DNA from: Kutzneria buriramensis
GTDB taxonomy: Bacteria > Actinomycetota > Actinomycetes > Mycobacteriales > Pseudonocardiaceae
Length of the DNA stretch: 64,000 nt
Direction of reading: 5' to 3'
Assembly: GCF_003387475.1 (NCBI RefSeq)
Contig: NZ_QUNO01000010.1
Span: 124,001 to 188,000, forward strand
Position numbers and translations under genes: made by a program. The notes under the pieces were generated by a model that was not told the origin of the DNA, made no database searches, and saw nothing but the letters and a program-made list of their open reading frames with translations. Positions 58,730 through 64,000 of this stretch are shown here, in pieces. How positions within the stretch are numbered: position 1 is the stretch's first letter; the number at the start of each line of letters is the position of its first letter.

Positions 58730-59329
58730 CTAGCGGTCACGCCACGCCATGTGAGATGTCGACAGGGCTGCAATCGCTATGCGCTTCGCCGTGTCGGTGC
58801 GCAGCGCGTCTTGCGATGACTTGATCCAACCCTCGACACCTTGGTAGCCAGCGGCGCCGTACTCGACAGCCTGGATCAGGCACTCCAACTTGTCCGCGTC
58901 CTTGGCGCAGCGTGCTTCAAGGCTGGACTGCGATTCGTACTCGCCGACGGCCTCCTGCACGGTCTTGGCAGCGGCCTCGGGCATCCTCGCGACCTGGTCC
59001 TTGGTGATCGCTTCGTTGTCGCCACTACTCGGGATGTAGGGCTTTGCCGTGTGCGGGATGTCGCCAGTACGTGTCTCCTGCGAGTCATGCCAGATCGCCA
59101 TGAACGCAGCCCGCGCGGGGTCTGCACCTTCCTCAGCAGCAATCAAACCCGCGAGCTGCGCGACTCGGAGGCTGTGCTCAGCGACAGACTCTGGATCCCG
59201 TACTCCGACGTGCCACCAGCCGGCGCGACGCATCCGCTTCAACACACCCATCTCGAACGCGAAGGTCGCAATGCCAACCGCGTCGGTGTCCGTCTCTGTC
59301 GGCGAGACGGAGCTGGTGTCAGCAGCCAC
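58730..59329 (-). CDS. HD-domain 5'-nucleotidase-like protein (YfbR/HDDC2 type)
   Basis: 199 residues. HD motifs: WWHVGVRDPESVAEHSLRVAQLAGLIAAEEGADPARAAFMAIWHDSQETRTGDIPHTAK (part shown, about 35-95), with His in AEHSLR, the HD in IWHDSQE and ETRTGDI. Such enzymes dephosphorylate deoxynucleoside monophosphates. It is 12 nt downstream of the HTH regulator, likely one operon. The link with the RiPP genes is by location only. Confidence 0.78.
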   Translation of the reverse strand: MAADTSSVSPTETDTDAVGIATFAFEMGVLKRMRRAGWWHVGVRDPESVAEHSLRVAQLAGLIAAEEGADPARAAFMAIWHDSQETRTGDIPHTAKPYIPSSGDNEAITKDQVARMPEAAAKTVQEAVGEYESQSSLEARCAKDADKLECLIQAVEYGAAGYQGVEGWIKSSQDALRTDTAKRIAIAALSTSHMAWRDR

Positions 59330-59341
59330 GTGGAACCTTCC

Positions 59342-60469
59342 TCATCGGTCAGCAAGCCGGATCGCGTAGGCCACGCTAGCCAACTCCTGACGTGTCCGGG
59401 AGCCCAGGTCGGGATCGGCCTCGGTCTGCGCGATCTTGGTGAGCGCCAACCGCCGCAGGTCAGGTTGGTGATCAAGTACAGCGGGCCGGGCGAGAAGCAA
59501 AGTCCACAGGGTGTGGATGTTGAGGTCCGCGTGGTCCGACCCAGGACGCAGGCGGCCTAGCAGGTGTTCGATGACGCGTGTGCCGGCCCAGCGGTTGGGA
59601 TGCGCATCGATCATGAATCCGTCATCAGCTTGCGCTTCGGGAATCTCGCCCAACCAATATGCCCAGTAGTTGAGGTTTGCGGTCTGTTGCATGTCCGTAG
59701 ACAAGCCCGTCTCAACGAACCGCCGCAAGGGCTCCTTGTTTCCGTTGCGAGCAAGCGCAATCGCCGACGACCGTACAGCAACCCAAGAAGGGATGTCTCC
59801 AGCGCGACTCGCCGCACTAACGGACTTATTCTGCTCGTCCAGAAGCCATTGCGACGAGGTTTCACGGTCGTCGAATCCGAGGAGATAAATCGCCTGACGC
59901 CTCAACAAGACGTGTTCATCTTTACGAAACGCATCGGCAGACGTAAGAAGATGATCAAAGAATCGCGCCCGTTCATCAGCATGCAAAACGGGGCGGTCCG
60001 AAACAGGCCCTCGTCGCACTGGTCGACCAGTTGCAAGGTTGGCCAGCTGTGTAGGCGTGACGCCTGTGACAGGCCAGGTGATCAGGTTCGTGAGGTCACG
60101 GCGATGCACTACCGCAGCCAGAGGGTGGCTTACTGGATCAGCCACCCGCGCGCCGGCCTCGACGGCGTCGGCGATGACGAGATCTGCCTCGAACGCGTCC
60201 GACAGCAGCTCGAACAAGCTCGGCTGCACGCCAAGACCGGTCATCTTCATACGCAACCGTGCGAGATCCAAGGCACGCATGGATGTCAGCGGTCGACGCC
60301 CGAGCTCCCATCCCTGGACTGTGTTCAGGTCGACGGCAAGTCGTTCGGCGAGCTCGACCTGCGTCATCGGGATCGACTCACGAATCAACTTGAACAGGTA
60401 GCCGGACACCACGCCCAGGCAACGCGGAGAACCCGTACCAGTGGTACGCGTTCGCCTTCCTCGGTCCAT
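59342..60469 (-). CDS. HTH (XRE-like) regulator with helical repeat C-terminus
   Basis: 375 residues from ATG 60469; GTG 60412 would start at VVSGYLFKLIRESIP and leave the palindrome at 60435 in the promoter. The helix-turn-helix is in MTQVELAERLAVDLNTVQGWELGRR (about 36-60 from ATG 60469). The rest is helical and resembles TPR-like tails of streptomycete regulators located beside ATP-grasp RiPP clusters. It probably controls the divergent small genes and the cluster. Confidence 0.75.
   Translation of the reverse strand: MDRGRRTRTTGTGSPRCLGVVSGYLFKLIRESIPMTQVELAERLAVDLNTVQGWELGRRPLTSMRALDLARLRMKMTGLGVQPSLFELLSDAFEADLVIADAVEAGARVADPVSHPLAAVVHRRDLTNLITWPVTGVTPTQLANLATGRPVRRGPVSDRPVLHADERARFFDHLLTSADAFRKDEHVLLRRQAIYLLGFDDRETSSQWLLDEQNKSVSAASRAGDIPSWVAVRSSAIALARNGNKEPLRRFVETGLSTDMQQTANLNYWAYWLGEIPEAQADDGFMIDAHPNRWAGTRVIEHLLGRLRPGSDHADLNIHTLWTLLLARPAVLDHQPDLRRLALTKIAQTEADPDLGSRTRQELASVAYAIRLADR
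60435..60447. promoter_or_regulatory. GTACCA-G-TGGTAC palindrome near the regulator start
   Basis: A perfect 6-bp inverted repeat around one base, 23 nt before the GTG 60412 start. Could be the autoregulatory operator of the HTH protein if that start is used. Confidence 0.45.
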
Positions 60470-60622
60470 CTCCGGCCCCCAACGGTTCAGCCTTGACCAG
60501 CTGAAACCCGTACTCGCAGTCAGTCCAAGTGCAGGACAAACAAGCCTAGCGTCTACTACGTGACGGTCAACCAACACGCAGAGTCACTGCCGAGGTCGTC
60601 ACCTGACTGGAGGTGCGCCGCC

Positions 60623-61078: not shown

Positions 61079-61453
61079 ATGCATATCCCCCTGCGCCCTC
61101 CAGTACCGTTCGTTTTCGGTTACCTACGACTTCCGTCGCATCGGCCGTCCTACGTGTTTGCTGTCCGCCGACATCTCGCGTGGTATTGCCAGGATCACGG
61201 TCTGCGCGTCGGCCGTATGTTCTTCGACGAGGGTTACCCCGACACGTCTGTAAGCCGGCCCGACTTCGCCAACATGTGTTCTCGCATCCGCGAAGAAAAG
61301 CCTTACGGCGTGCTGGTGCTCCACCCCCGCGACTTGTCCACGGACGAGGCGATCAAGTCGCACCTCGCGTCCTTGGTGTGGAGGACTGGGGTGCAGCTCC
61401 TCACGGTGCGCGGCGAACTACCGACACGACCTGAGCACGTAATGCAGCCATGA
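61079..61453 (+). CDS. Resolvase-like domain protein lacking DNA-binding region
   Basis: 124 residues. Sequence FGYLRLPSH at the N-terminus corresponds to the serine recombinase opening Y-x-R-V-S, and DEGYPDTSVSRPDFANMCSRIRE followed by VLVLHPRDLSTDE matches the later conserved blocks. In place of the catalytic Ser there is Pro (LRLPS), the next residue being Ser, and no DNA-binding domain follows. It probably no longer cuts DNA and was taken over for another role near the RiPP genes. The gap 60953-61078 is AT-rich and holds its promoter. Confidence 0.6.
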   Translation: MHIPLRPPVPFVFGYLRLPSHRPSYVFAVRRHLAWYCQDHGLRVGRMFFDEGYPDTSVSRPDFANMCSRIREEKPYGVLVLHPRDLSTDEAIKSHLASLVWRTGVQLLTVRGELPTRPEHVMQP

Positions 61454-61888: not shown

Positions 61889-61977
61889 GCCAGCCAGATG
61901 CCGTGACGTTCTACGACTTCCCGCAGTCAACGACTTCGGGGGTGCAGTGCTACCGACACATGCGAGAGGAAACCGTG

Positions 61978-62232
61978 GTGACTACCGCCTTGTTCGACGA
62001 GGTTCGTGAGCACTTCCCGATGGGCCGTCCCGGCGGTCGAATCGTTCCGACGGCGGAGTGCATCTCCGACGGAGCCTGTACGCCGCTGGGACTGTCGTTG
62101 CGGGTCGCTCCCGCCACGGTGACGCTGGTGGGCGCGGCGACGACGCAGGCCACCACCCAGACGACGGACGGCGACGAGGGCGACGGCAACGACGACGCGA
62201 ACCCGGATTCGTTCACCGACGAGACGTGGTAG
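61978..62232 (+). CDS. Graspetide (ATP-grasp RiPP) precursor peptide
   Basis: 84 residues from GTG 61978, 7 nt after GAGAGGA; GTG 61975 is an alternative. The leader includes a MGRPGGRIVPT segment, two Cys (28 and 34) and TPLGLSLR (35-42), similar to the P-x-G-L-x-x-R type leader motif recognised by ATP-grasp ligases. The core part has a Thr block (55-63, six Thr: TTQATTQTT) followed by an acidic part with nine Asp/Glu between 64 and 82, including DG pairs at 64-65 and 69-70. Thr hydroxyls joined to Asp/Glu side chains by ester bonds is the usual graspetide outcome. It ends 3 nt before the ligase gene. Confidence 0.8.
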   Translation: MTTALFDEVREHFPMGRPGGRIVPTAECISDGACTPLGLSLRVAPATVTLVGAATTQATTQTTDGDEGDGNDDANPDSFTDETW

Positions 62233-62235
62233 GAC

Positions 62236-63228
62236 GTGCACATCGTGGCCGCTCCCGATCTTCAGCCGCAACGTGACACCGTCGTTGTGCTCACGCGGGA
62301 GAACGACCTGACCGCTGACATGGTGGTCGAGGAGTTGCATTCTCGCAGCGTTCCCGTGTTTCGCTTCGACACAAGAGACTTCCCACTGTCGTTGACACTG
62401 AATGCCCAATTCGCCGACGGCTGGCGCGGCACGCTCGACAGTCCGAGCGGCTCAGTGAAGCTTGAGTCAATCCGTAGCATCTATTTTCGACGTCCGACAG
62501 GATTTTCATTCCCTGACGCCATGACGGACGCCGAGCGACGATTTGCGGGAAGTGAGGCGCGCAGGGGAATCGGCGGGCTTCTGATAAGCCTTCCATGTCT
62601 GTGGCTGAACCATCCCGCTCGTGTGGCGAATGCCGAATACAAGCCCTACCAACTGGCGGCGGCCGCCAGGTACGGGCTCGACGTGCCGGCGACGATGCTC
62701 ACCAACGACCCAACCGCAGAAGGCGAGGCGAGGGAGCTACTCGGGTCCCTCCTGGTCTACAAGCCATTGGCGTCTGCGTCAGTCGTCGATGGCGACAGAT
62801 TGTCGATGGTCTACGCAACCGAAGTGTCACCTGATTTCATCGCGGATGGGAGAATCGCGCTCACCGTTCACCAGTTTCAGGAGCGCCTACCGAAAGCCAG
62901 GGACGTTCGCGCTACCGTCGTCGGCGAACACGTATACGCGGCGAATCTCTATTCGGACTCGCCGAAGGGGCAACTCGACTGGCGGGCGGACTACTCGTCG
63001 ATACGCTACGAGAGAACTCAGCTACCGGCCGAGGTCGAACGTCGACTGCTCGCGCTCACACGCTGCCTGGAGCTGCGCTTCTGCGCCGCCGACTTCGTTG
63101 TCACCCCAGATGGCCGGTACTATTTCGTAGACCTCAACCCGAACGGCGAGTGGGGCTGGATTGAGCAAGAGACCGGACTACCCATCGCGGCGGCCGTGGC
63201 CGAACTGCTAGCCGAGGGGCAGGAATGA
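62236..63228 (+). CDS. ATP-grasp ribosomal peptide maturase (graspetide ligase)
   Basis: 330 residues from GTG 62236. N-terminal pre-ATP-grasp domain: TVVVLTRENDLTADMVVEEL and SIYFRRPTGFSFP with the RRP motif of the MvdC/MvdD/TIGR04187 type. ATP-grasp part: HPARVANAEYKPYQLAAAARYGLDVPATMLTN (about 130-162), LVYKPLA near 175, and the metal/phosphate region DFVVTPDGRYYFVDLNPNGEWGWIEQETG (about 285-313, with the D-N catalytic pair). It activates Asp/Glu carboxylates of the precursor by phosphorylation and couples them to Thr/Ser (or Lys). Stop overlaps the next start by 4 nt. Confidence 0.9.
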   Translation: MHIVAAPDLQPQRDTVVVLTRENDLTADMVVEELHSRSVPVFRFDTRDFPLSLTLNAQFADGWRGTLDSPSGSVKLESIRSIYFRRPTGFSFPDAMTDAERRFAGSEARRGIGGLLISLPCLWLNHPARVANAEYKPYQLAAAARYGLDVPATMLTNDPTAEGEARELLGSLLVYKPLASASVVDGDRLSMVYATEVSPDFIADGRIALTVHQFQERLPKARDVRATVVGEHVYAANLYSDSPKGQLDWRADYSSIRYERTQLPAEVERRLLALTRCLELRFCAADFVVTPDGRYYFVDLNPNGEWGWIEQETGLPIAAAVAELLAEGQE

Positions 63229-64000
63229 CGAGCTACGTGATGCTCGACGAGGCTGGAGAGGCCAAGGCTCGCCGATATTCGGCGCTGCTTATCGAGCAGC
63301 TTCTGACCAAGGGTCTACTGTCGTCGTCGGAATGGCAGGATGCATTCAAACGCGTTCCGCGACACCTGTTCGTTCCCGAGTTCCGATTGCCGGACAACTT
63401 CGGCGGTCACAAGCTGAACGGGCGGGACCCGAACCAGCAGGAGGGCTGGCTGCGGGCGGTATACGCCAACGAGGCGTTGCTGACTAGCGTCGGTGACGAC
63501 GGCACGGTACTGAGTACGTGTTCATCCCCCACCGTAGTTGCCCGCATGTTGGAGTCGTTGAACGTCGCCGACGGACACACCGTTCTGGAGATCGGGACGG
63601 GCACTGGATGGAACGCCGGCCTGCTATCTGCCCGGTTGGGGTCGGAAGCGGTGACGTCAATCGACGTCGATCCCGCATACATCGAGTCAGCACGGGAACG
63701 GCTTGCGGAGCTCGATCTCCACCCCACCTTGGACCTCGCCGACGGGTACGTGGGGTATCCCGATCGGGCGCAGTACGACCGGATCGTCGCCACCTGCTCG
63801 GTCCGCCGCTTTCCATCAGCATGGCTTGAGCAGGTGCGGGTCGGCGGCATCATCCTCGCGGATGTCCGGGGCAGCTTCGCCGGAGGTGTCGCGCGGATAA
63901 CCCGTACAGCAGAGCACGGAGCGTCTGGCGTCTTTCTGCCTGCCGGCGGCAGCTTCCTGCCTCTACACAGCCCTGACCACCACGTCCGTCCCGGCTCCGA
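63225..64000 (+). CDS. PIMT-like O-methyltransferase of the graspetide cluster (3' end missing)
   Basis: The frame starts at ATG 63225 and is open at the window end (258 residues seen). The segment RYSALLIEQLLTKGLLSSSEW, then VPRHLFVPEFRLP, matches the protein-isoaspartate methyltransferase group used in ATP-grasp RiPP clusters (TIGR04188). The SAM-binding motif is HTVLEIGTGTGWNAGLLSARLG near residue 110. Relatives methylate an Asp side chain of the graspetide, which then closes to an aspartimide. It is translationally coupled with the ligase. Confidence 0.85.
   Translation, partial: MTSYVMLDEAGEAKARRYSALLIEQLLTKGLLSSSEWQDAFKRVPRHLFVPEFRLPDNFGGHKLNGRDPNQQEGWLRAVYANEALLTSVGDDGTVLSTCSSPTVVARMLESLNVADGHTVLEIGTGTGWNAGLLSARLGSEAVTSIDVDPAYIESARERLAELDLHPTLDLADGYVGYPDRAQYDRIVATCSVRRFPSAWLEQVRVGGIILADVRGSFAGGVARITRTAEHGASGVFLPAGGSFLPLHSPDHHVRPGS

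Follow-up and report, generated by a model that had tools for sequence, protein, structure and literature searches.

Graspimiditides, the group 13 graspetides, are products of a three-gene class of clusters. In the systems described, a leader motif recruits the ligase, and the methyltransferase works on the cyclised core only, where a loop Asp is converted to an aspartimide (PMC13001092, PMC13003496). Four products are reported as characterised, and surveys have counted 1326 group 13 clusters, or 962 and 1432 when counting was done by methyltransferase (PMC13001092). Known members are reported to carry two to five cross-links, including four in amycolimiditide and five in SsfA (PMC13001092, PMC13003496, PMC10787088). 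Amycolimiditide, albusimiditide and SsfA share with the locus analysed here, by description only, the three-gene class, Thr-Asp esters and an Asp methylation site in the loop (PMC13001092, PMC10787088).

The closest described system is that of fuscimiditide (ThfABM) from Thermobifida fusca. Two esters, Thr3-Asp22 and Thr7-Asp18, link its stem segments TMRVT and DVEKD, and the loop has 10 residues; known loops are given as 10-12 aa (PMC12291112). According to the same source, the ligase ThfB does not take Glu in place of Asp but accepts Ser in place of Thr, mostly tolerates altered stem sizes poorly and accepts loops of 4 to 72 aa (PMC12291112). RPFG in the ThfA leader is described as the recognition motif (PMC13003496).

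Here we describe a three-gene set from Kutzneria buriramensis that very probably ties a small peptide into a ring-shaped product and is a new example of this known family. It lies at the end of the window, the whole analysed stretch of 64,000 nucleotides (bases 124001-188000 of contig C10 in a 12 Mb genome). In the limited literature covered, no paper was found on graspetides in Prauserella or on ATP-grasp graspetide systems in Kutzneria or Kibdelosporangium.

Table 1. Cluster features in window coordinates
Feature	Position	Strand	Remarks
Precursor peptide gene, 84 aa	61978..62232	+	GTG start, TAG stop; homologues precede related ligases
Leader segment TPLGLSLRV, aa 35-43	62080..62106	+	From alignment; putative counterpart of the ThfA RPFG recognition motif; TPFG in five relatives
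Thr stem pentad T55-TQA-T59, predicted ester donors	62140..62154	+	T55/T59 invariant in 4/4 aligned precursors; pattern in 6/6 subfamily members and the ThfA-like precursor
D64-G65, predicted methylation and aspartimide site in loop	62167..62172	+	Loop DG in 6/6 subfamily members and the ThfA-like precursor
Asp stem pentad D73-ANP-D77, predicted ester acceptors	62194..62208	+	D73/D77 invariant in 4/4 aligned precursors
C-terminal tail SFTDETW, aa 78-84	62209..62229	+	0 or 1 residue there in relatives
ATP-grasp graspetide ligase, 330 aa	62236..63228	+	TIGR04187 372.5 bits, cut-off 350; residues kept
PIMT-type (PAMT) methyltransferase, first 258 codons in window	63225..64000	+	393 aa in total; ends 406 bases past the window

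The ligase and methyltransferase genes

An earlier note on this DNA, made from the sequence alone, had proposed that genes for a precursor, an ATP-grasp ligase and a methyltransferase are coupled in one unit. This arrangement was confirmed (Table 1), with the ATG of the methyltransferase gene overlapping the ligase stop codon (ATGA). The complete methyltransferase gene spans L004:4226-5407. Alternative starts are present for the precursor (GTG at 61975, 3 bases upstream) and for the ligase (in-frame GTG at 62245); the precursor start in Table 1 is backed by five subfamily relatives, all with an MTT N-terminus.

The ligase passed the TIGR04187 cut-off, and other ligase models gave lower scores (MvdD, 188.7 bits; MvdC, 172.7; RimK, 44.4). 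A generic ATP-grasp identity, which the note had named as grounds for dropping its proposal, was thereby ruled out. The assignment as a graspetide cluster thus stands, and the word "new" applies to it only as a further member of a class with more than 1300 reported clusters. The window ligase is alone in the whole genome in scoring above the TIGR04187 cut-off. Two further ATP-grasp proteins of the same genome resemble TIGR04187 at sub-cut-off scores of 154 and 84.6 bits (G000:C7:71330-72172, L002, and G000:C11:159411-160292, L003).

The best solved-structure matches of the ligase were 9bou ("MvdD-like pre-ATP grasp domain-containing protein"), 5ig9 ("ATP grasp ligase"), AMdnB (7m4s) and CdnC (7mgv). 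The window ligase retains K136, K176, Q215, R225 and R250, residues listed as invariant across the 64 ligases compared. Position 305 is Glu in the window ligase and Gln in the other 63; in the structure alignments it is Glu in 5ig9, 7m4s and 7mgv and Gln in 9bou. E305 stands four residues past the conserved Asn301, which we take to be part of the ATP-grasp metal site.

The proposed PIMT-type nature of the methyltransferase was borne out. The protein scored 97.9 bits against PF01135 (Pfam PCMT; cut-off 20.3), and its best family was TIGR04188, matched over the full model (1-363 of 363) at 325.8 bits, below the cut-off of 380. An AlphaFold2 model based on 31 sequences (mean pLDDT 92.5) was used, and a four-sequence model (pLDDT 53.1) was discarded. 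Fold search with the 31-sequence model placed both chains of 1DL5 first, over 373-375 columns. The rmsd was 8.0-8.4 and the TM-score 0.51-0.52 on the query, and therefore domain placement differs. The model predicts what defines a PAMT, an extension at the C-terminus that exceeds 100 aa and has a TmPIMT-type fold. A C-terminal domain of the 1DL5 type is described as common to RiPP-associated PIMT homologues, and 1DL5 is, to the knowledge of Lee and others, the only solved enzyme of that PIMT clade (PMC10787088).

A PIMT homologue with a C-terminal domain beside an acidic peptide might also be expected of a pamtide- or imiditide-like system, in which the methyltransferase alone would act on the peptide and the ligase would serve otherwise. 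Clusters of the pamtide kind are described as having no enzyme for primary modification (PMC10787088). Here a graspetide ligase is present and sits between the precursor and methyltransferase genes; pamtide identity was rejected on this ground, and we give this reading next to no weight.

The precursor gene and its relatives

The features of the precursor core listed in the earlier note were all found in the sequence: six Thr in the block TTQATTQTT (positions 55, 56, 59, 60, 62 and 63), nine acidic residues after it (D64, D66, E67, D69, D72, D73, D77, D81 and E82) and two core DG sites (64-65 and 69-70). The leader, of 54 residues, has a third DG at 31-32 as well as Cys at 28 and 34; Trp84 is the final residue. 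The sole Pfam/NCBIfam match of the precursor was to an unrelated family (14.2 bits, cut-off 81), and a search of solved structures with the core of a relative's precursor found nothing.

As composition alone the core motif is weak. The T...T/D...D pattern was reproduced in 19% of 20,000 core shuffles, and an equal or stronger Thr-before-acid order was seen in 2.9% of as many. The evidence for a gene is conservation, not pattern. Homologues of the precursor were found by tblastn upstream of related ligases (E 9e-16, L009; 8e-9, L013; 1e-7, L008), and three Amycolatopsis copies gave uncorrected nonsynonymous/synonymous ratios of 0.09-0.14. A chance open reading frame, which the motif by itself does not exclude, was rejected because homologues occupy the same place and are under purifying selection.

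A contig scan with a single protein returned no relative, and an alignment query returned 33 loci. Of 297 genomes from the window's family, with its own genome counted, 81 had a ligase match at E <= 1e-40. At E <= 1e-85, six of 397 genomes in the order sample had one (the window, Prauserella shujinwangii and four at 50-52% identity), as did one of 396 in the phylum sample, the window itself. The nearest ligases, at 57-58% identity, are those of P. shujinwangii, Amycolatopsis vastitatis, A. dendrobii and genome G238 (L008); that of A. rubida matches in two pieces, at 55 and 59%, which place it in this group. Identity of the methyltransferase to those of the subfamily relatives is 46-53%. The ligase tree comprised 64 rows after removal of eight duplicate loci and seven matches that spanned under 280 query residues (from L062, L065, L067, L007 and L070), one of which was the A. 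rubida ligase. It grouped the window with P. shujinwangii, A. vastitatis, A. dendrobii and G238, all Pseudonocardiaceae, with support 99/99, and gave the window a long branch of 0.52.

The A. rubida ligase is frameshifted in its record (L062 4971-5246 and on); precursor and methyltransferase are open there. This frameshift, together with E305 and the long window branch, could point to a decayed cluster, whose enzymes no longer modify the window precursor. Against it, none of the three genes in the window is interrupted, they are tightly coupled, and the ligase keeps the residues listed as invariant; we judge decay improbable.

In all five relatives the precursor gene lies upstream and the methyltransferase gene downstream of the ligase gene. 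Three branch ligases tested pass TIGR04187 (372.5, 373 and 383.1 bits), and three branch methyltransferases tested all stay below the TIGR04188 cut-off of 380 (325.8, 346.9 and 359.5 bits). TIGR04186 matched neither the window precursor nor those of relatives L008, L009 and L013 (none of four branch precursors tested), nor those of L006 and L043 from other branches. Thus, of the three model searches the earlier note had suggested, the one with TIGR04187 alone gave a result above cut-off. We take the missed TIGR04186 and the sub-cut-off TIGR04188 as limits of single models and not as a definition of the class. From these comparisons we take the six-genome Pseudonocardiaceae group to be a divergent branch within the class already known.

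Alignment of the precursors, also suggested earlier, revealed a fuscimiditide-like stem and a conserved DG. In four aligned precursors, E67 and D69 are invariant in the core along with T55, T59, D64, G65, D73 and D77, and the leader retains P24, T25, E27, S30, D31, T35, P36, G38, L39, L41 and R42, for a subfamily pattern PTxExxSDxxxTPxGLxLR. All six subfamily precursors have TxxxT, a loop and DxxxD, with loops of 13 residues in the window, 14 in four members and 15 in G238, and in all six a DG stands at loop position 5. The leader motif is TPLG in the window and TPFG in the five relatives. Leu also occurs there in Streptomyces loci, as APLAF in six of 46 precursor candidates; these came from 71 loci by a crude rule that missed the window and ThfA-like precursors and includes doubtful picks.

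The Cys pair (C28/C34), the second core DG (D69-G70), the long tail SFTDETW and the last Trp are unique to the window among the six precursors, which differs from its five relatives also by the six-Thr block and the Leu in the leader motif. The relatives have fewer core Thr, no Cys and one core DG, and end at the last stem Asp or one residue after it. The view that the Cys pair and the terminal Trp are unusual therefore holds against the five relatives; it is weakened for Cys by the ThfA-like precursor, which also has one in its leader (C62). We saw nothing to suggest that the Cys pair has a special role.

This ThfA-like precursor, with its core DG at loop position 3, was recovered from a genome in the genus of Thermobifida cellulosilytica. 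The T. fusca-like set (L077) passes all three NCBIfam cut-offs, unlike the window set, with 57.9 bits for the precursor, 465.8 and 437.9. L077 is taken to be the fuscimiditide locus on the basis of its TMRVT/DVEKD stem and its 67+22 aa length. Compared with fuscimiditide, the window ligase is 42% and the methyltransferase 35% identical, and the precursors share the plan of TxxxT, a loop with DG and DxxxD as well as a P[F/L]G leader motif. They differ in loop (13 residues in the window versus 10), leader length (54 versus 67 aa), motif (TPLG versus RPFG), the C-terminal tail of the window precursor and gene order (A-B-M versus B-A-M in L077).

The observed gene order, families, homologues and residue conservation thus include a ligase of the TIGR04187 kind, an adjacent PIMT-homologue methyltransferase and a Thr/Asp core around a DG loop. 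Set against the class are the two NCBIfam shortfalls, TPLG in place of RPFG, E305 in the ligase and a core pattern that by itself is within chance. On balance, and by analogy with the characterised systems, we consider it highly probable that the three genes together direct the biosynthesis of a group 13 graspetide.

Genes beside the cluster

An HTH protein of about 400 aa is encoded upstream in five of six loci viewed (the window, L040, L041, L062 and L037); none was listed upstream in L042 with a rough ORF filter. Pfam HTH matches were below cut-off in the window and L040 and above it in L041, L062 and L037. The proteins look different and therefore may be a common actinomycete feature and not part of the system.

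A pair of genes for an HD-domain-like protein (sub-cut-off matches only) and an HTH protein is found at 58730-60577 (-) of the window, divergent beside the cluster. In G075 and Streptomyces sp. AV19 too (L103 1673-3342 and L063 2226-3879), such a divergent pair adjoins graspetide clusters, whose ligases belong to other branches. Its HTH protein is present in 45 of 297 family genomes; judged by eye, it lies within 2 kb of a ligase with E <= 1e-40 in the window and G075 only, and in G179 about 20 kb separates them. A shared insertion spot or a regulator are candidate explanations.

Upstream of the window and Prauserella clusters there is, in addition, a small protein resembling a resolvase N-terminal domain (window 61079-61453 (+); L040 3209-4033). 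The two are 31% identical, and their Pfam scores are below cut-off (17.7 and 21.2 versus 23.3).

Predicted cross-links and aspartimide site

The scheme proposed here takes its chemical steps, pairing, order of action and leader removal from the characterised relatives. The leader would bring the precursor to the ligase via the TPLGLSLR segment. The ligase would phosphorylate Asp side chains, and attack by Thr hydroxyls would yield esters. Since these residues are conserved, the pairs would most likely be T59-D73 (inner) and T55-D77 (outer), forming a stem with a 13-residue loop, with more rungs possible. The methyltransferase would recognise only the cyclised core and methylate D64 in the loop; attack of the G65 amide on methylated D64 would then produce an aspartimide, later partly opened to isoaspartate. 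The leader would be removed by a protease.

Two or more Thr-Asp esters together with an aspartimide at D64-G65 are our best reading. That T59-D73 and T55-D77 are both part of the product appears somewhat probable, and the pentads T55-T59 and D73-D77 fit the ThfB rules.

The extra Thr and Asp residues and the tail might instead serve a denser ladder of the same class, with three or four esters (e.g. T55-D77, T59-D73, T60-D72 and T63-D69, or T55-D81, T59-D77 and T63-D73). The 30-residue core holds eight Thr and seven Asp, and its best antiparallel register has four Thr-Asp pairs, a number within the range of cross-links reported for known members (PMC13001092, PMC13003496, PMC10787088). However, four pairs were also reached in 54% of shuffles with the Thr and acid parts kept apart (2.4% of full shuffles), so this register is no evidence, and across the four precursors aligned just one Thr pair is invariant. 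We consider such a ladder plausible, though short of an even chance. Because of these shuffles, and because other registers are open, the number of esters is not predicted with confidence.

Another pairing within the same class would make T63-D73 the inner rung, with D64 beside a cross-linked Thr and a loop of nine residues in the window; four of the five relatives would then have the fuscimiditide loop length of 10. A T...T-10 aa-D...D arrangement does occur in that register in P. shujinwangii and three Amycolatopsis, and loops of 10-12 aa are those reported (PMC12291112). But G238 (L008) has Ser at that site and, by count, a loop of 11; T55 would have no Asp partner in the relatives; and the DG would be at loop position 1, compared with 3 in the ThfA-like precursor. 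We regard this pairing as doubtful.

More tentatively, the window peptide may be the elaborated member of a separate graspimiditide branch, in which an ancestral two-rung fuscimiditide-like stem gained Thr, Asp and a tail. One ligase would then form at least three esters with four-residue rung spacing (T55/T59/T63 with D73/D77/D81), and E305 and TPLG would possibly be adapted to that ladder; we think this rather unlikely.

The window thus adds a divergent branch, represented by six genomes of Pseudonocardiaceae, to a class of which four products are characterised. The branch precursors tested escape the standard precursor model and therefore may be left unannotated. Loop length (13-15), Thr number and tail vary within the branch, which makes it a natural series for asking what sets how many rungs form and where the aspartimide lies.
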